IMG/VR virus record: IMGVR_UViG_3300006641_000227
Coordinates: 1-21,054 of that record
DNA from: a virus
Direction: 5' to 3' (one strand)
DNA length: 21,054 nt
Of this stretch, positions 9,075 to 16,670 are shown piece by piece. Position 1 is the first letter of the stretch; every line of letters begins with the position of its first letter. A program made the position numbers and the translations under genes. The notes below the pieces were generated by a model, which made no database searches, had not been told where the DNA came from, and saw nothing but the letters and a program-made list of their open reading frames with translations.

Positions 9075-9110
9075 GCCGTGCTGGCGGAAACGCTGGCACG
9101 GCTTTTTCCT
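9075..9110 (+). terminator. Strong terminator after the capsid cassette
   Basis: A 12-bp stem pairs 9075-9086 (GCCGTGCTGGCG) with 9091-9102 (CGCTGGCACGGC), with two G-T wobbles, across a GAAA tetraloop (9087-9090), followed by TTTTT at 9103-9107. The frame of the next gene is open through this structure, but its real start is at 9159. Confidence 0.92.
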
Positions 9111-9158
9111 TTAGCTGGGGGACGGTCCGAGTACAGTCCGACGCCATGGGAGGACGAG

Positions 9159-9836
9159 ATGACCTTCGCTGAACTCAAACTGATGCTTTCGCAGGACGTG
9201 AACCGGTCCGACAAGGAAACCCTCTGGTATCCTATCTGGATCAATCGCGCCCTCCGGAAGATTCAGTCCGACGAGACGTTCTCGTTCATGCGGAACCGGT
9301 CGGACGTCGTCATCGCCCAGGGCACGTCTTCCATCGCCCTCCCTGCCCGGTTCAAGCAACTGACCGCCGAGCAGTACCCGGTCACGGTCATCGACCCGAC
9401 CATGGGCACGGGGCCCCTGGCTGAGCTGCCCTGCGAGGTCACCAGCCGCGAGGACATGATCTCCTACCGGGCGTCTACGTACGTCCCGAGCCGTCCGGCC
9501 AACGTCCGCGGCCGCCTGAGCGGCCTGCCCGTCTGGATTGAGAACACCGCGGCGGGCTGGACGCTCAACATCATCGACACGGCGGCCGAGGCCCTGACGT
9601 TCCGGGTCTCGCACTTCGCTTTCCTGGCCGACCTCGCCGCCGACTCGGACAGCAACTATCTCACGACCAACTACCCCGAGCTGGTCGAGAACAAGATCAA
9701 GGCGATCGCGTTTGCGGCGATTAACGACCCAATCGCCGCACAATTTGAGGCGATGGCAGCGCGGCTGTTGTCTGACGCGGTGCTGGACGACCGGCGCCGC
9801 ACGTATCGCGGCCGGGCACTCAGGATGGGAGGATGA
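9159..9836 (+). CDS. Head-tail adaptor protein, SU10-adaptor-like
   Basis: A 225-residue protein that probably binds the portal ring and joins head to tail. The start at ATG 9159 is chosen because GGGAGG lies five bases upstream; the longer frame from 9078 would begin inside the terminator stem. The N-terminal helix block (MTFAELKLMLSQDVNRSDKE, then WINRALRKIQSDETFSFMRN) matches the pattern of connector adaptors in SU10/phiEco32-like phages. A central beta part (SIALPARFKQLTAEQYPVTV; TLNIIDTAAEALTFRV) follows, and the end is helical (NKIKAIAFAAINDPIAAQFE). Its place between the capsid cassette and the tail genes agrees. The family call is by pattern, not search. Confidence 0.78.
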   Translation: MTFAELKLMLSQDVNRSDKETLWYPIWINRALRKIQSDETFSFMRNRSDVVIAQGTSSIALPARFKQLTAEQYPVTVIDPTMGTGPLAELPCEVTSREDMISYRASTYVPSRPANVRGRLSGLPVWIENTAAGWTLNIIDTAAEALTFRVSHFAFLADLAADSDSNYLTTNYPELVENKIKAIAFAAINDPIAAQFEAMAARLLSDAVLDDRRRTYRGRALRMGG

Positions 9837-9839
9837 TCT

Positions 9840-10787
9840 ATGGCAGGCTACCTTGGAGCAGACTTTGACGCGAACCAGCCGGAAAACAGCGACAGCGTGA
9901 AGTTCGGCGCGGAGTGGATCCGCGACCTGAAACGACGCGTGAAGCTGTTCGGCTCCACGCTGTTCAACCTCGAGACCGGTCAGCTGCGCGACAGCGTGGT
10001 GCGGCACGCGTCCCTCGCGGACATGCCGGGCCTGGTGGCGGGCACTTACAATCGGGTCAAGGTCAACTCGAAGGGCCTGGTCTACGAGGGGGCGTCGAGC
10101 TCCGAGCAGCAGACCGCCAACCTCTACACCGCCCTGTTCCAGGCCAACGGCGCCTACGCGGTTGAGCGCAAGGACGCCGTCGCTCTCACGGGCGGAGGCG
10201 GAGCTGTCGATGCGATCTACAAAGGGTCGTTCGACTACGACGGCACCAGCGGTAGCGTCACCCCGCCCTACGACACTGCCTACGCAGTCCGGGGCCAGTA
10301 CGTCGAGTTCGTCTGGTCCCCGCCGTCGGGCGTGCGCCGCGTCAAGGCCACCATCATCGGCGGCGGTGGCGGAGCCTACGTCGGCGCCAGCAACTGGTTT
10401 GGCGGTGGCGGCGGTGAAGCGGCCGAGGCCATCTTCAACCTCGACGGGTCCGGGGTGCAGGCGCTGACCCTAATCGTCGGCAAAGTCGGTCAGAACGACT
10501 CGCCCGGCAGCCCGACGTCCTACGGCGACGGCCTCCCCTCTCGCGTCCGGCTCAGTTCGGCCGTGTACGTCGACGCCGCGGGCGGCAGCAAGGCAACCAG
10601 CTCGGCGGGCGGCGGTGTTGCCACGGGAGCGGCTGCCGGCAGTCTGCTGGTTATCCGATCTGCAGGCACCGCGGGCGCACAGAGCGTCAACGGTCAGTCG
10701 GGCAGCAGCTTCAACAAGTACGGGCGCGGCTCGTCCTCGGGCAGTGTGCTCGGCGACGGCGTCGTGATCCTCGAGTGGCTCCAATGA
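9840..10787 (+). CDS. Glycine-rich tail protein, tandem copy 1
   Basis: A 315-residue protein, probably a tail appendage or fibre. It starts three bases after the adaptor stop with GGGAGG upstream. The N-terminal part (1-110) is a virion-anchor candidate shared with the next gene: GADFDANQPENSDSVKFGAE, then WIRDLKRRVKLFGSTLFNLE and YNRVKVNSKGLVYEG. A boundary segment VEFVWSPPSGVRRVKATIIG leads into a Gly/Ala/Ser-rich region (about 174-300, with GGGGGAYVG and WFGGGGGEA) and the end GDGVVILEWLQ. The 'W..P.GV..V...IIGGGGG' pattern is that of glycine-rich domains found in phage tail and adhesin proteins, where packed glycine helices present exposed binding loops. Host recognition is a likely role, by inference. 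Confidence 0.8.
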   Translation: MAGYLGADFDANQPENSDSVKFGAEWIRDLKRRVKLFGSTLFNLETGQLRDSVVRHASLADMPGLVAGTYNRVKVNSKGLVYEGASSSEQQTANLYTALFQANGAYAVERKDAVALTGGGGAVDAIYKGSFDYDGTSGSVTPPYDTAYAVRGQYVEFVWSPPSGVRRVKATIIGGGGGAYVGASNWFGGGGGEAAEAIFNLDGSGVQALTLIVGKVGQNDSPGSPTSYGDGLPSRVRLSSAVYVDAAGGSKATSSAGGGVATGAAAGSLLVIRSAGTAGAQSVNGQSGSSFNKYGRGSSSGSVLGDGVVILEWLQ

Positions 10788-10790
10788 CCT

Positions 10791-11615
10791 ATGGCCAAGC
10801 TCGGCGCAGACTTCAACGCTTCGAGCCCGACGGAGGCTGACTTCGTTCGGCACCCGTCGAAGCCCAACCTCACCACCGAGATTCGGTTCATCCGCTCTCG
10901 GCTCAAGGCGTTCTTTGACCCGCTGTTCCAGCTGGAGAACGGCGACTTCAAGGACAACGTCATCCCCCAGGCGGCCATCGTCGACCACCCCGACAAGCCC
11001 AGCAGCAACGGGCTGCAGTACACGTCGGTCACCGTCGACAAGCGCGGGTTTGTCATCGACGGGTCGACGGACCAGCTGCTGACGCTGCCGCGGCACTTCC
11101 GTGCGTTTTTTTCGTCCCAGGGCGCTTTCATCGAGGCACCAGATGGTGTCGGCACCAACCCGGCGTCGACGCTGACCCCGTGGCCCGACAACCGCATCCC
11201 CTGGGAGACGCAGTACCGCTCGTTGCCGCAAGTGTACCCCTACAAGTTCATCGTGCCGGCCGGAGTGCGTCGCCTAAGCGTTTCCTTGTTCGGTGGCGGG
11301 TGGAAGTTCGGGAGTGCTGCGATCGCCCCAGAGCAGCCCAAGCACCTGTTTGTCAACGCGGCCGTCACGCCTGGAAACAAGTTCGACGTGTGGGTCGGCG
11401 GCAGCGACAGCCCGTCCGTCCTGGCCCGCATGGAGGCCGAGTCGTTCTGCACGACCGAAGGCTACATCAAGAATCTGTCGAGCCCGACCGCGGGCTATCC
11501 GGACGCCGGGATCGCCCGGAATCCGCCGGCCATCTACCGCCCGTACGGGGACAACGGCGCTTCCGCCAATCAGCTGGGCACGCCTGGCTGCGTAATCATC
11601 GAATGGTATGCGTAG
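10791..11615 (+). CDS. Tail protein, tandem copy 2 (glycine core lost)
   Basis: A 274-residue paralogue of the preceding gene. Shared features in order: MAxLGADF(D/N)A at the start, a helix with IR.RLK.F..PLFQLE.GDFKD, VTVDKRGFVIDG against VKVNSKGLVYEG, then PAGVRRLSVSLFGGGW (156-171) against PSGVRRVKATIIGGGG, and the end GCVIIEWYA against GVVILEWLQ. Between the last two blocks the long glycine region of copy 1 is replaced by an ordinary beta-type sequence (VNAAVTPGNKFDVWVGGSDS). The start lies three bases after the previous stop with no clear ribosome site, so translation is probably coupled. A related but differently specific tail appendage is the likely role. Confidence 0.8.
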   Translation: MAKLGADFNASSPTEADFVRHPSKPNLTTEIRFIRSRLKAFFDPLFQLENGDFKDNVIPQAAIVDHPDKPSSNGLQYTSVTVDKRGFVIDGSTDQLLTLPRHFRAFFSSQGAFIEAPDGVGTNPASTLTPWPDNRIPWETQYRSLPQVYPYKFIVPAGVRRLSVSLFGGGWKFGSAAIAPEQPKHLFVNAAVTPGNKFDVWVGGSDSPSVLARMEAESFCTTEGYIKNLSSPTAGYPDAGIARNPPAIYRPYGDNGASANQLGTPGCVIIEWYA

Positions 11616-13743
11616 GACGAACTCGATTGAGATCAAGGTCAACGCCCCGTCCAAGGGCCTCCAGACCCGTCTCCCGCCCGACCTCCAGGACGACGGCAAG
11701 TCCCAGTACCTGACGGTCGCTGAGAACGTCCGCGCCGAGCGTGGCGAGCTCAAGGCGGCGCCAGGCTACGAGCGCGTCCACCTCCCCAACGAGCAGCTCG
11801 ACGGTCAGGTCAACCTGATCCACCAGCCCAACCTCACGTCGTCCGACGCGGAGATCCAGAACCAGCCGGTGGTTGGGACAGAGGGCAGTCTGTACTCGAT
11901 GGCCAAGCGCGCCCGGACGCTTGTCTGCCCGGCGGACTGCACGTTGAGGTTCGCGGCCGTTTCGGACAGCGGGCGCGTCGACGGAGCGGCGGCAGATGTC
12001 GGCAAGCTCGTCCGGGGCTGGGGCCCTGAGCTCGTAGTCCACGCCGGCGACCTCGCCTACAGTGCGGGCGGGACAGCAGCGGACGACGACAAGTACGAGA
12101 CCCAGGTGGCCAAGCATTACTACTGGGCGATCGGCGGGTACCGCGGCCAGTACGGAACGGGGCCCGACATCAACGGGTTCTTCCCGGCCCTGGGCAACCA
12201 CGACTACACCGACGGGCCTTTGTCGCGGTTCCTGACCTTCTTTAACCTGCCGAACAACGAGCGATGGTACACGATCAAGCGGGGCCCCGTTCAGTTCTTC
12301 TTCATCGATTCGTACGGCTACGGCCCGTCCGCCCCCGGGCCTGGCGGGAACAACATTGGTGGCACGGGGGCGGCAGCCGGAGTCGGATCGGCTGACTTGT
12401 CCTCGACGGGCCCCCAGGGCCAATGGCTCCAGGCTCAGTTGGCGGCATCCGACTGCCCGTGGCGCATCGTGGTTTTCCACCACTCGCCGCAGACCAGCGA
12501 GTCGGGCTACTACCCCGGCTACGAAGTGATGAACTGGCCGTTCGCCCAGTGGGGCGCCGACCTGCTCATCACGGGCCACGCGCACGTCTACGAGCGCATC
12601 CTTCGCGCTGACGGGATCCCTCAGCTGACCATCGGGCTCGGCGGTCAATCCGTCCGCAACTTCGTCGCGACGCCGCTCCCGCAGTCCCAGTTCCGGTACA
12701 ACGGCGACTACGGAGCCCTCCTCGTCGATGTCAGCAGCACCAGCCTGACGACCAAATTCTACAGCCGGGCAGGTACCCTCATCGACACGATGACGCGGAC
12801 GACGGCTCGCCCGCTCAGTGTCTGCTACACCGGCACCATCTCCAAGCAGGCGACTCAGCTCGAAGTCATCCCGCCGACTCTGTCCCTGCCCCAGGACGTC
12901 CCGTTCCCGCTGACGGCCACGGCCAAGTTCAACGACGGCACCGCCCTCAACGTCACGGCGGGGTCCAGCTGGACCTCGTCCAACACGTCTATCGCAACCG
13001 TCGATTCGTCCGGCGTCGTCACCGGATTTTCCACGGGCGTCTCGACCGTAACCGCCAACTACCAGGGCTTCACGGACACCTGCGTGGTCACTGTCTTGCC
13101 CGACTGCGCCGACGAGAAGCACGACATTGCCTTGGTGCTGGACCGGTCGGGGTCCATGGCATGGATGAACCCTCCGCAGGGCACCCGAGTCGACCGCCTC
13201 AAAATCGCGGCCAACCTGTTCCTAGACTCTCTCAAGGAAGGTGACGAGGTCGCCACGGTGTCCTTTGCCAGTGAGGTGAAGCTCCACCATGGACTGACCT
13301 CCGACTACAGCCAGTCACAGACGGCCATCAATTCGCTCAGTGCGTTTGGCGGGACGGCCATCCCGGAGGCTGTCGCTACGGCGCGGGAGGAGCTGCTCAA
13401 GAACGGACGGACGGGAGTCAGAAAACTCATCGTCTTGTTCACCGACGGCCTGGCGAACATCTCTCCCTTCTGCAACTACGACGTCGATTGCGCCATGGCG
13501 GCGGCGACCGTCGAGTTCAACGGCGCCAAGGACAACGGCATCACTTGCATCGTGGTAGCCCTGGACGTGGCGATCTACGGACTGAACTACGAGGACATCA
13601 TCCGCGGGTGGCCCACCTGCCCCTCGCTCTACTACTCGGTCGTCGACACGGGTGACCTGGGCCCGGTGTTTGTCGTTCTTCGCAACAACGTGTGCGTCAA
13701 CCCGTGCTCGTCGGGGTCGGGCATCGGTCTGGGTCTGATTTGA
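11608..13743 (+). CDS. Multi-domain virion protein: metallophosphatase, BIG2 and vWA
   Basis: 711 residues. Residues 1-105 look like the start of a phage connector or tail protein (PSKGLQTRLPPDL; AENVRAERGELKAAPGYERV; VNLIHQPNLTSSDAEIQNQP). Residues about 112-400 are a purple-acid-phosphatase-like metallophosphatase: D120 (VSDSG), GDLAY (147-151), GNHD (196-199), HH (291-292) and GHAHVYER (323-330) preserve the metal ligands. Residues about 417-497 are a BIG2 Ig-like domain (WTSSNTSIATVDSSGVVTGF). Residues about 505-690 are a von Willebrand A domain with MIDAS DRSGS (512-516), T583 and TDG (612-614). There are 12 cysteines and no signal peptide or membrane helix. Its first eight bases overlap the previous gene. 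Probably a virion enzyme/adhesin; the substrate is unknown. Confidence 0.9.
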   Translation: MRRTNSIEIKVNAPSKGLQTRLPPDLQDDGKSQYLTVAENVRAERGELKAAPGYERVHLPNEQLDGQVNLIHQPNLTSSDAEIQNQPVVGTEGSLYSMAKRARTLVCPADCTLRFAAVSDSGRVDGAAADVGKLVRGWGPELVVHAGDLAYSAGGTAADDDKYETQVAKHYYWAIGGYRGQYGTGPDINGFFPALGNHDYTDGPLSRFLTFFNLPNNERWYTIKRGPVQFFFIDSYGYGPSAPGPGGNNIGGTGAAAGVGSADLSSTGPQGQWLQAQLAASDCPWRIVVFHHSPQTSESGYYPGYEVMNWPFAQWGADLLITGHAHVYERILRADGIPQLTIGLGGQSVRNFVATPLPQSQFRYNGDYGALLVDVSSTSLTTKFYSRAGTLIDTMTRTTARPLSVCYTGTISKQATQLEVIPPTLSLPQDVPFPLTATAKFNDGTALNVTAGSSWTSSNTSIATVDSSGVVTGFSTGVSTVTANYQGFTDTCVVTVLPDCADEKHDIALVLDRSGSMAWMNPPQGTRVDRLKIAANLFLDSLKEGDEVATVSFASEVKLHHGLTSDYSQSQTAINSLSAFGGTAIPEAVATAREELLKNGRTGVRKLIVLFTDGLANISPFCNYDVDCAMAAATVEFNGAKDNGITCIVVALDVAIYGLNYEDIIRGWPTCPSLYYSVVDTGDLGPVFVVLRNNVCVNPCSSGSGIGLGLI

Positions 13744-14492
13744 TGAAGATCGTCTACAGCCACTGGTCTCGGCAGCCGCTGACCGCAGACAAACGGATCA
13801 TCCTCGCGCTCTCGGTTCTTCTGGCCAGGCGCCACTATCAGCAGATCGAGATGGTCACTGATGATGCGGGGGCCTCCTTATTCCGAAAGATGGGGCTGGA
13901 GTTCAGCAAGGTCAGCCTGTCGATGAATGATTTTCGGGCCGACAAAGAAGCCTGGGCGGCTGGCAAAATCCACGCGTACGCCCTGCAGGAAGAGCCGTTC
14001 GTCCACATCGATCACGACGTCTTCCTGTTCGAGCCCCTGCCCGAGTGGTGGACGTCGGCGCCCGTGGGCGCCCAGGACGACGAGCCGCGCTACCGCTACG
14101 ACGAGTCGCTGACCAAGGTCCACCCGCCCCACCGAAACCTGGTCGCCTTGCCGGACTACAACTGGCACGCCTACAACACGGGCATTTTTGGGGGCCACGA
14201 CCTGGACTTCATCCGGGGCTACGCCAACGAGGCGTTGAAGCTCATTCACGACCACCCGTGCTTCCACTGGTGGGCGATGCCTGTCTACGAGCAGGCGTTC
14301 CTGTCGAAGTACGCGCACGACAGAAAAAGGGAGGTCACGTTGCTGCTGAAGGACCACGACGAGGCCGAGGACCTGGGCTACTGCCACCTCATGGAGTGCA
14401 AAAACCGCCCCAACTGCGTGTCCCGGGTGTACATGCGCCTGCAAAGTGAGGACCGGGACCTGTACCGGAGGGCGATCCTTGCCGGCGACTGA
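13743..14492 (+). CDS. Glycosyltransferase-like protein, DUF6734
   Basis: A 249-residue protein starting at ATG 13743, whose A is the last base of the previous TGA, so translation is coupled. The order of motifs matches the DUF6734 family as I know it: MKIVYSHWSRQP at the start, LALSVLLARRHYQQIEMVTD, then KEAWAAGKIHAYALQEEPFV. Next come an acidic DHD (D90-H91-D92) in HIDHDVFLFEPLP and NTGIFGGHDLDFI (145-157). The DxD-like triplet and 'N.GIFGG' block resemble GT8-type nucleotide-sugar glycosyltransferases, so transfer of a sugar to a virion or host molecule is plausible but unproven for the family. It is embedded in tail genes, an uncommon position for such an enzyme. Near-complete length. Confidence 0.82.
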   Translation: MKIVYSHWSRQPLTADKRIILALSVLLARRHYQQIEMVTDDAGASLFRKMGLEFSKVSLSMNDFRADKEAWAAGKIHAYALQEEPFVHIDHDVFLFEPLPEWWTSAPVGAQDDEPRYRYDESLTKVHPPHRNLVALPDYNWHAYNTGIFGGHDLDFIRGYANEALKLIHDHPCFHWWAMPVYEQAFLSKYAHDRKREVTLLLKDHDEAEDLGYCHLMECKNRPNCVSRVYMRLQSEDRDLYRRAILAGD

Positions 14493-14525: not shown

Positions 14526-16670
14526 ATGGCTTTGCAGTTCGCTGGCATCCTGAAGAAAATCTACTCGGGCGCTGACACCGCACGCGCTCGACGCTGGGTG
14601 GCTGCGGACTACATCGACCGCGTCCTTTTTGCGTCACCGTCGGTAGCTCCCCTATTTTGGCCAGGTTCCGGGAGCGCACGCCCGATTCCGGGCCTCCCCG
14701 ATTCTGACGGGTACGATGGGGTCGAGGTGTTCGACAACCACGTCCTGCTTTGGAGGGAGTCGACCCTCAAGTGGAGCGACCGGAACGATTTTGGCCTCTG
14801 GATCCCTGTCGCAATCACCGCGGCAGCCGGGTCGGCGGTCCTCGAGTCGGACCTCGTCCTGACCGCGACAGGCACGACCACCACGGCAGCGTATTTGACC
14901 GAATTGGCGGGTGAGTTTGTGTCAGGTCAGTTCGTCCGGATGGTCAGCTACGAGACCGACCCGACGGCGATCCTGTACGACTACTTCCGAGTCCGTCAGG
15001 TCGCTCTGGAATCCATCCAGAGCATCACGAGCATCAAGCGGCCCCAGACCGCGGCGGCCGGCGCCAAGACCCGGATCTACCTGGACCGGTACAACTCCTG
15101 GATCGACTGGACAACCGGCGCCCGGCTCAAGATCAACGGGGTCTCGACCCAGCTTAAGATCACGGACCGGTCCCGGAACGCCAACTACGACTTCCCGACG
15201 TCGGGTATCAGCCCCGTCGTGCCGGAGATTGGCGGCAAGCTGGTCATGCCGTTCGCCCGCGTGAACGCCGAGATGCAGGCCAGCGACACGGTGTCTGTCG
15301 GCCCGTCGGCGGACCCCGGCCAGGATCTCTACGAAATCACTGACCCGCCCTCCTATTCGGTGACCATGCGACGGCTCGGGATCGGCGACAAGGCGTCGGG
15401 TACGCTGTGGCCCAGCGGCACCATCGTCAGCTTCCAGAATTGGGTGGAGGTCGAGAACGTCGGATCGAGCGACGTTGCGATCCCCGGAGAAGCCACCGTT
15501 TCCGTCCTGGATAGCCTCATTCTCGAGCCCCTGGGATTCACTGGTGGCACGGCGCCGGGAGCGAAAATCCCCGCTGGCACCGCGGTCGAAACGATCAATG
15601 CCAATGCGTCGGGCGAAGTGCTCAACGTCGGATCTACGATCAACGGAGACATCTTCGGATGCGTCACCCTGGCGGAGTACTGCTACATCCTGAAGAAACG
15701 GTCCATCCAGAGCATGCAGAGCGTCGGGCCGGCGTCCGGGACGTTCTTCATCCGGCCTGAGATCCTCGACGAGGGGCCCATCGGCAGGTACGCGTGGTGC
15801 CGTGCCGGCGACCGTGAGATCGCCCTGATTGGGAACAAGGGGATGTACCTCTACGGAGGCGGCCAGAACCTGCGTCCCTTCGCGATCCAGCATTGGGAAG
15901 ACTTCCGCGACGAGGTGGACTGGGCCCGGGCAGACGAGATCGTTGCCCACCATCACCGGCGCGACAACGAGGTGTGGTTCGTCTACCCGACCAAGCTGGG
16001 CGAGACCAAGTGTTTCGTCTTCAACTACGTCGAGAACAGCGTCGTGCTGGACCGCTACCCCTCGCAGCTGAACGGCATCACTGCCCTGGGCCGCGTCGAC
16101 TGGGAGTTGGCCCCCACCTGGGAGTCGTTGGATGTTACCGAGCGGTGCAATGGAGCGGCCAAACGGTGGTACGAGTACGTCGATGAGCCCGAACGGGAAT
16201 ACACCGTGATGGCGGCGGGCGGCGACACGGGGAACAAGATCCTGGGTGAGGATCCCAACGAGGAGTACCCGCGCCTGCTGGTCCACGGCCGCGTCTGGTC
16301 ACGTTCGTCGAACGACGACTGCAACCCGACGGCCATCGCCAGCCTCGCCGAGACGCCAGACTTCGATTTCGGCGACCCCACGCTCTGGAAGTACGTCGAC
16401 ACGGTGTTTGTTATCCTTAACGGGAAGCAAAACGTGCCCGAAGGGGCTGTTTTGACGGTCACCGTGGGGGCTCGGGACAACCTCAACAGTCCCATCCGGT
16501 GGTCTGAGCCCCAGGAACTGTCGATCACAGAGGCTGGGTCCGGCCCGACCAAGATCAACGCGACGGTCAGCGGGCGGTACCTGCGCCTTCGGTTCGCGTC
16601 GGAGGCGGTGGGGGCCAATTGGGGTATCACAGCGTACCACATCACGGCCCGCCGCGGAGGAACCTACTGA
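14526..16670 (+). CDS. Nozzle-like tail protein
   Basis: A 714-residue protein with a very strong ribosome-binding site. It is beta-rich throughout. The region YCYILKKRSIQSMQSVGPAS (about 387-406), followed by FFIRPEILDEGPIGRYAWCR, IALIGNKGMYLYGGG and NEVWFVYPTKLGETKCFVFN, is the repeated 'hostile-strand' pattern of the beta-propeller in podovirus nozzle proteins, which close the tail tube below the adaptor. The C-terminal part (about 590-714) holds another beta domain (VDTVFVILNGKQNVPEGAVL; YLRLRFASEAVGANWGITAY). It is the largest complete gene together with the vWA protein. The alternative is a large tail-wall or stabilisation protein of another type. The end overlaps the next start by one base. 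Confidence 0.75.
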   Translation: MALQFAGILKKIYSGADTARARRWVAADYIDRVLFASPSVAPLFWPGSGSARPIPGLPDSDGYDGVEVFDNHVLLWRESTLKWSDRNDFGLWIPVAITAAAGSAVLESDLVLTATGTTTTAAYLTELAGEFVSGQFVRMVSYETDPTAILYDYFRVRQVALESIQSITSIKRPQTAAAGAKTRIYLDRYNSWIDWTTGARLKINGVSTQLKITDRSRNANYDFPTSGISPVVPEIGGKLVMPFARVNAEMQASDTVSVGPSADPGQDLYEITDPPSYSVTMRRLGIGDKASGTLWPSGTIVSFQNWVEVENVGSSDVAIPGEATVSVLDSLILEPLGFTGGTAPGAKIPAGTAVETINANASGEVLNVGSTINGDIFGCVTLAEYCYILKKRSIQSMQSVGPASGTFFIRPEILDEGPIGRYAWCRAGDREIALIGNKGMYLYGGGQNLRPFAIQHWEDFRDEVDWARADEIVAHHHRRDNEVWFVYPTKLGETKCFVFNYVENSVVLDRYPSQLNGITALGRVDWELAPTWESLDVTERCNGAAKRWYEYVDEPEREYTVMAAGGDTGNKILGEDPNEEYPRLLVHGRVWSRSSNDDCNPTAIASLAETPDFDFGDPTLWKYVDTVFVILNGKQNVPEGAVLTVTVGARDNLNSPIRWSEPQELSITEAGSGPTKINATVSGRYLRLRFASEAVGANWGITAYHITARRGGTY

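Follow-up and report, generated by a model that had tools for sequence, protein, structure and literature searches.

Introduction

Purple acid phosphatases (PAPs), whose color comes from Tyr-Fe(III), are known from plants, bacteria and mammals, and the secreted PAPs of plants scavenge phosphate. The Pur_ac_phosph_N domain marks the large plant and bacterial PAPs, not the small mammalian type, and the active site includes a catalytic-type His that is not a metal ligand. The PAPs of kidney bean, wheat (a phytase) and mammals (TRAP), represented by the structures 2qfp, 6git, 1ute and 2bq8, share with the viral protein described here the fold, the D/D/Y/N/H/H/H ligands and the catalytic-type His; the viral protein differs from them in that it lacks the FN3-like N-terminal domain, is fused to a tail nozzle segment, an Ig-like (Big_2) domain and a vWA domain, and is only 15–23% identical to them in structural alignments. 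In Plasmodium GAP50 (3tgh), the same fold serves as a eukaryotic membrane anchor.

Phage tails commonly bear enzymes that cleave sugars or peptidoglycan. Phosphoesterases also occur there, namely the tail-borne glycerophosphodiester phosphodiesterases (GDPD) of enterococcal phages (PMC10194240) and of the Ld17 baseplate, which belong to a different protein family and act on Gram-positive teichoic acid. In addition, PAP-like genes of unknown function are present in some Microbacterium phages of clusters EG and EK and absent in others (e.g., Rowlf gp26, cluster EK1; PMC12352085, PMC13014141), but no tail anchor has been reported for them, unlike the protein considered here. An earlier note on the present DNA had called a tail-borne phosphatase unusual, and in view of these examples the remark holds for the PAP fold rather than for phosphoesterases in general: in the open-licence literature searched, we found no description of a nozzle or adaptor-position protein bearing a PAP-type domain, whether intact or inactive, and thus no PAP-type phosphatase built into an injection nozzle, unlike the sugar- and peptidoglycan-cutting tail enzymes.

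The closest described tail structure is the nozzle of phage SU10 (Kuravirus), gp17, a hexamer below the adaptor with four Ig-like domains that are inserted in its propeller and swing out at injection (PMC9509320).

The Window and Its Gene Neighborhood

The window, a virus record of 21,054 bases from an uncultivated phage, encodes SU10-type portal, capsid and adaptor proteins recognized by Pfam, and its adaptor–fibers–nozzle order is the gp11–gp12/16–gp17 order of SU10 (PMC9509320). Both nozzles carry extra domains; however, that of the window is split in two genes, with a PAP–Ig–vWA cargo on the N-terminal piece (Table 1), and no direct match of window proteins to the SU10 nozzle was found.

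Table 1. Features of the window discussed in the text
Feature	Position	Strand	Basis or remark
SU10-type head–tail adaptor protein (context)	9078–9836	+	Pfam SU10_adaptor, E 2e-10
Two paralogous fiber-like proteins	9840–11615 (9840–10787, 10791–11615)	+	downstream of adaptor, upstream of PAP gene
711-aa protein: nozzle N-segment, PAP-type metallophosphatase, Ig-like (Big_2), vWA	11608–13743	+	ORF, Pfam
Anchor, residues 1–105: tail nozzle N-terminal segment	11608–11922	+	homology to undivided nozzles
PAP-type metallophosphatase domain, residues 109–402	11932–12813	+	Pfam, PDB profile search, model
Motif I, SDSG, metal ligand D120	11962–11973	+	
Motif II, GDLAY, ligands D148 and Y151	12046–12060	+	
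Motif III, GNHD, ligand N197 and catalytic-type H198	12193–12204	+	
Motif IV, ligand H291 (within HHSP)	12478–12480	+	
Motif V, GHAHVYER, ligands H324 and H326	12574–12597	+	
Big_2 bacterial Ig-like domain, residues 416–485	12853–13062	+	Pfam, E 5e-6
vWA domain, residues 502–697	13111–13698	+	Pfam VWA_2, E 9e-19
DUF6734 protein	13743–14492	+	Pfam, E 3e-37
Nozzle body (beta-propeller part), complements anchor	14526–16670	+	PHROG 3287, E 2e-25

The start of the 711-residue protein at the ATG at 11608, from which residues are numbered, is supported by comparison. Relatives of the window phage were found in IMG/VR by means of capsid, portal and domain alignments: L002–L006 encode the whole protein at the same genome position (57–61% identity), and full-length homologs occur in L079 (44%) and L012 (33%). 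As a single query, the 711-residue protein retrieved no relative from IMG/VR, nor did tblastn match it to GenBank phages. With the PAP domain alone, the closest tblastn matches were unannotated faecal contigs and no Microbacterium phage was matched, while a search with a bacterial PAP relative added only gp352 of Bacillus phage G. Antisense ORFs over the PAP gene (e.g., 11596–13122, minus strand) were dismissed as mechanical, the conservation belonging to the plus-strand protein.

Upstream, the first fiber-like protein matches Gly_rich_2 (Pfam) and a tail-fiber PHROG, cross-matches between the two products establish their paralogy, and the adjacent pair is also found in L002–L006. Downstream, the DUF6734 gene and the PAP gene share one base, where the start codon of the former meets the stop codon of the latter. 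The DUF6734 product had no PDB match in the profile search and no paper in the literature search; by inference it is glycosyltransferase-like, as its HIDxDVFLF motif, invariant in alignment A15, resembles the glycosyltransferase DxD. In the phage of L024, a Pfam glycosyltransferase-2 gene (L081:1960-4215) occupies this slot, L012, in which the PAP site is lost, has neither gene, and several glycosyltransferase-like genes, judged by eye, adjoin the tail PAP genes in L091:2344-9864 and L092:9306-12579; the pairing of PAP and glycosyltransferase genes recurs across these phages.

The Anchor as a Nozzle Segment

Residues 1–59/61 of the anchor align to residues 1–63/65 of undivided nozzles in L008, L010, L014 and L016, with 43–46% identity and E values of 1e-11 to 1e-16 (alignment A14). 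Each of these nozzles is one ORF of 868–1010 aa, and its C-terminal part matches the window's nozzle body, whose profile in turn matches two nozzle chains of known structure, 8zkm (E 1.5e-4) and 8zkk (E 5.7e-4). The beta-propeller body is absent from the 711-residue polypeptide and encoded by the separate gene, and the protein, as read from these alignments, is a nozzle segment with cargo rather than a complete nozzle.

What follows the segment varies. L008:11323-13938 has a LamG-like domain (Pfam) between the N-segment and the nozzle body of one undivided ORF, and L014:13144-16176 has an insert that is similar to a LamG-like domain, judged by sequence. In L017 (13964-15514) and L066 a gene of its own encodes the segment with a PKD domain, to which L017 adds a long C-terminal part. 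Since the same segment heads undivided nozzles and bears varied inserts, it belongs to the nozzle and forms a slot for exchangeable cargo. Anchor residues 59–106 have no match after the LamG insert in L008 and L010 and are only hinted at in L014 and L016, which places the insertion point only approximately. Modeled without the nozzle body, the anchor is predicted with very low confidence (pLDDT 26–39), which fits a piece that may need the nozzle body as its partner. Its profile also weakly matches gp44, a decoration protein of 62 residues (8vb0_H, E 4.5e-4).

The homology of the anchor, together with the nearby nozzle body gene and the shared gene order, supports the tail location that had been proposed for this protein, and the PAP domain is probably a nozzle-borne appendage of a SU10-like podovirus. 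We regard it as very unlikely that the protein is instead kept out of the virion and released at lysis as an enzyme that scavenges phosphate or blocks superinfection. Scavenging is the role of the secreted plant PAPs, and phage P1312 has a metallophosphatase with a signal peptide that was suggested to prevent superinfection (PMC4569894). However, the first 105 residues of the window protein are nozzle sequence, and their MRRTNSIEIKVNAPSKG is, by eye, unlike a signal peptide; moreover, the PAP gene overlaps the upstream fiber gene and sits between fiber and nozzle genes, and other phages have the domain as part of a different structural-module protein.

The PAP-Type Site and Predicted Fold

All eight active-site residues are present in the window protein: the seven PAP ligands D120, D148, Y151, N197, H291, H324 and H326, distributed over five motifs, and the catalytic-type H198. 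Their motifs start at nt 11962 (D120), 12046 (D148/Y151), 12193 (N197/H198), 12478 (H291/H292) and 12574 (H324/H326), and the residues are just where the earlier note had placed them within 11938–12600, an interval inside the ORF 11608–13743 (+). That note had counted H292 among the ligands of a complete set, and in this detail it needs correction: L024 has Ser and L092 has Lys at position 292, and because 291 stays His there, H291 is the motif IV ligand. The textbook form of metallophosphatase motif I is GDxG, whereas the window protein has SDSG.

The Pfam Metallophos family matches the domain with an E value of 2.1e-14, and the family profile, searched against the PDB, drew matches only to PAPs or PAP-like proteins, those with E ≤ 1e-3 all being PAPs (for example wheat, 2e-12; kidney bean, 5e-9; human, 2e-7). 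The modeling suggested in the earlier note agrees with its assignment to the PAP type: the AlphaFold2 model, with pLDDT mostly 60–95 in the PAP core and low-confidence loops, aligns to pig PAP 1ute with Z 24.1 and 3.3 Å over 253 residues, and the best 50 structural matches listed for it include no metallophosphatases other than PAPs and GAP50. The identities PhoD (PF09423) and YfcE (TIGR00040) were rejected, as their matches fall below the cut-off and PAPs fit better. Pfam finds no Pur_ac_phosph_N domain in the window protein, unlike the bacterial relatives L026 and L028, which have one; therefore we speak of a PAP-type domain and not of a plant-type PAP.

At the other end of the protein, the vWA domain, modeled with Z of about 23 to the vWA of ANTXR2, has an intact MIDAS when aligned with its relatives (D512-S514-S516, T583, D613). 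The MIDAS is kept in all copies but L024 (L040:1-1953), where the PAP site is kept and Glu replaces the first Asp; this gene, split by contig ends that overlap by 46 bases, is whole across the join. L012 is the reverse case, with the MIDAS intact and the PAP site lost.

Conservation of the Site

Among nozzle-type copies, the window, L002/L004, L003, L079 and L024 retain the full set of eight, such that no ligand is lost in five of the six lineages, down to 41% identity. The same holds for L089, L094 and L097, whose domain is part of a fusion with a different tail protein, for L091, L101 and L096, which have no such fusion, and for the bacterial PAP L028, while Tyr alone is missing in L092, L098, L099, L116 and the bacterial L026. 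In L089, L091 and L094, which have 28–35% identity elsewhere in the domain, retention of all eight residues has a P of 6e-5 to 3e-4 per sequence if identities are placed at random across the domain, values that are indicative because the sequences are related.

The dN values between L002 and L003 are 0.085 (anchor), 0.116 (PAP), 0.267 (Big_2) and 0.263 (vWA), a rough comparison given that dS is near saturation. Retention of the site by a domain that changes half as fast as its vWA neighbor points to catalysis, and the contrast between slow PAP and anchor and fast Big_2 and vWA is as expected of a constant catalytic part joined to a faster-changing binding tip. That the PAP domain is a relic, in decay within the window's phage family, could be argued from two inactive homologs, described below; yet no residue is lost in the window copy or its closest relatives, and pN (0.11) is far below pS (0.72) for L002 versus L003. 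A relic is accordingly disfavored, and we give it hardly any credence.

A Second Fusion Context and Copies That Lost the Site

Scans with the PAP alignment revealed copies in a second context. In L089, L092 and L094, PAP is C-terminal to another module, which takes up the first ~250 residues of the protein, and the fusion gene directly follows a presumed capsid gene and a small gene; a like fusion protein is found in L097, L098, L099, L103/L104 and L116, and L117 has the domain on a different N-terminal part. The fusion partner is a probable head–tail adaptor by position, its match to SU10 adaptors being weak (hhalign probability 40–45%, 36 columns). These arrangements show, at the level of the predicted proteins, that fusion of PAP to tail proteins has happened repeatedly.

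Each context includes copies that have lost all eight residues. The nozzle-type L012 has N,N,A,Y,G,Y,A,P in their place, though its domain is still predicted to have the PAP fold (pTM 0.84, Z 27 to human PAP 2bq8), with GAP50, a PAP fold used as an anchor and hence a parallel to this dead copy, among its best structural matches; the window copy differs from GAP50 in retaining the site. The adaptor-position L103/L104 have N,N,G,S,V,N,D,G. In the tree, L012 pairs with the intact L024 (92/78) inside the nozzle group (86/91), and L104 is placed, with weak support, among adaptor-position copies in another part; because the fusion partners also differ, the losses are most simply independent. Catalysis, judged by these losses, is not essential to the PAP module. 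Selection retains the site in most relatives, in line with the earlier argument from kept ligands to catalysis; retention is not a general rule, as homologs with lost ligands, the counterevidence proposed in the note, exist in two lineages, for the module and not for the window copy.

Such losses also bear on the view that the domain is a receptor-binding or spacer module, whose kept metal site binds host phosphate or stabilizes the fold with no need for turnover. The dead copies in both contexts, the PAP-fold anchor GAP50 and vWA and Ig neighbors typical of adhesion speak for it. On the other side, H198, which is of catalytic type, is kept wherever the ligands are kept, and the loss of Tyr alone in four adaptor-position copies fits a working hydrolase with relaxed metal preference. 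For the window protein we consider pure binding rather unlikely. A broader reading, which we put forward tentatively as a possibility, is that the PAP fold is a general tail module, grafted onto a nozzle segment or an adaptor-position protein, that recognizes host-surface phosphate and for which catalysis is optional.

Proposed Function and Outlook

We lean toward the view, as the reasonably probable one, that the 711-residue protein is a virion component, the nozzle N-segment of a SU10-like podovirus, carrying a PAP domain that cleaves host-envelope phosphate, an Ig-like spacer and a vWA domain. On the model of SU10 gp17, the nozzle would bear a ring of six copies, with the cargo positioned below the adaptor as it is in SU10. 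The vWA domain, fast-changing and with its MIDAS kept in all copies but one, is likely the host-binding tip and would grip a ligand on the host surface. Constraint on the PAP domain comes close to that on the anchor, and this domain most likely hydrolyzes a host-surface phosphate ester: it would hold two metals through its seven ligands, with H198 in the acid–base position, and remove or cleave phosphate in the host envelope or a surface glycan, during attachment or nozzle extension. Candidate substrates may include LPS or glycan phosphate, phospholipid, extracellular nucleotides and teichoic acid.

On balance, the window phage most likely has a virion-borne phosphoesterase that acts on host-surface phosphate, and its fold would serve some relatives in a noncatalytic role. 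Intact and dead PAP domains, paired by nature on two different tail proteins, offer a clean test of whether catalysis is needed or binding is enough. If the broader reading of the fold as a general tail module is true, some PAP copies would cut, while others, in which the whole metal site has been lost at least twice, would merely hold.
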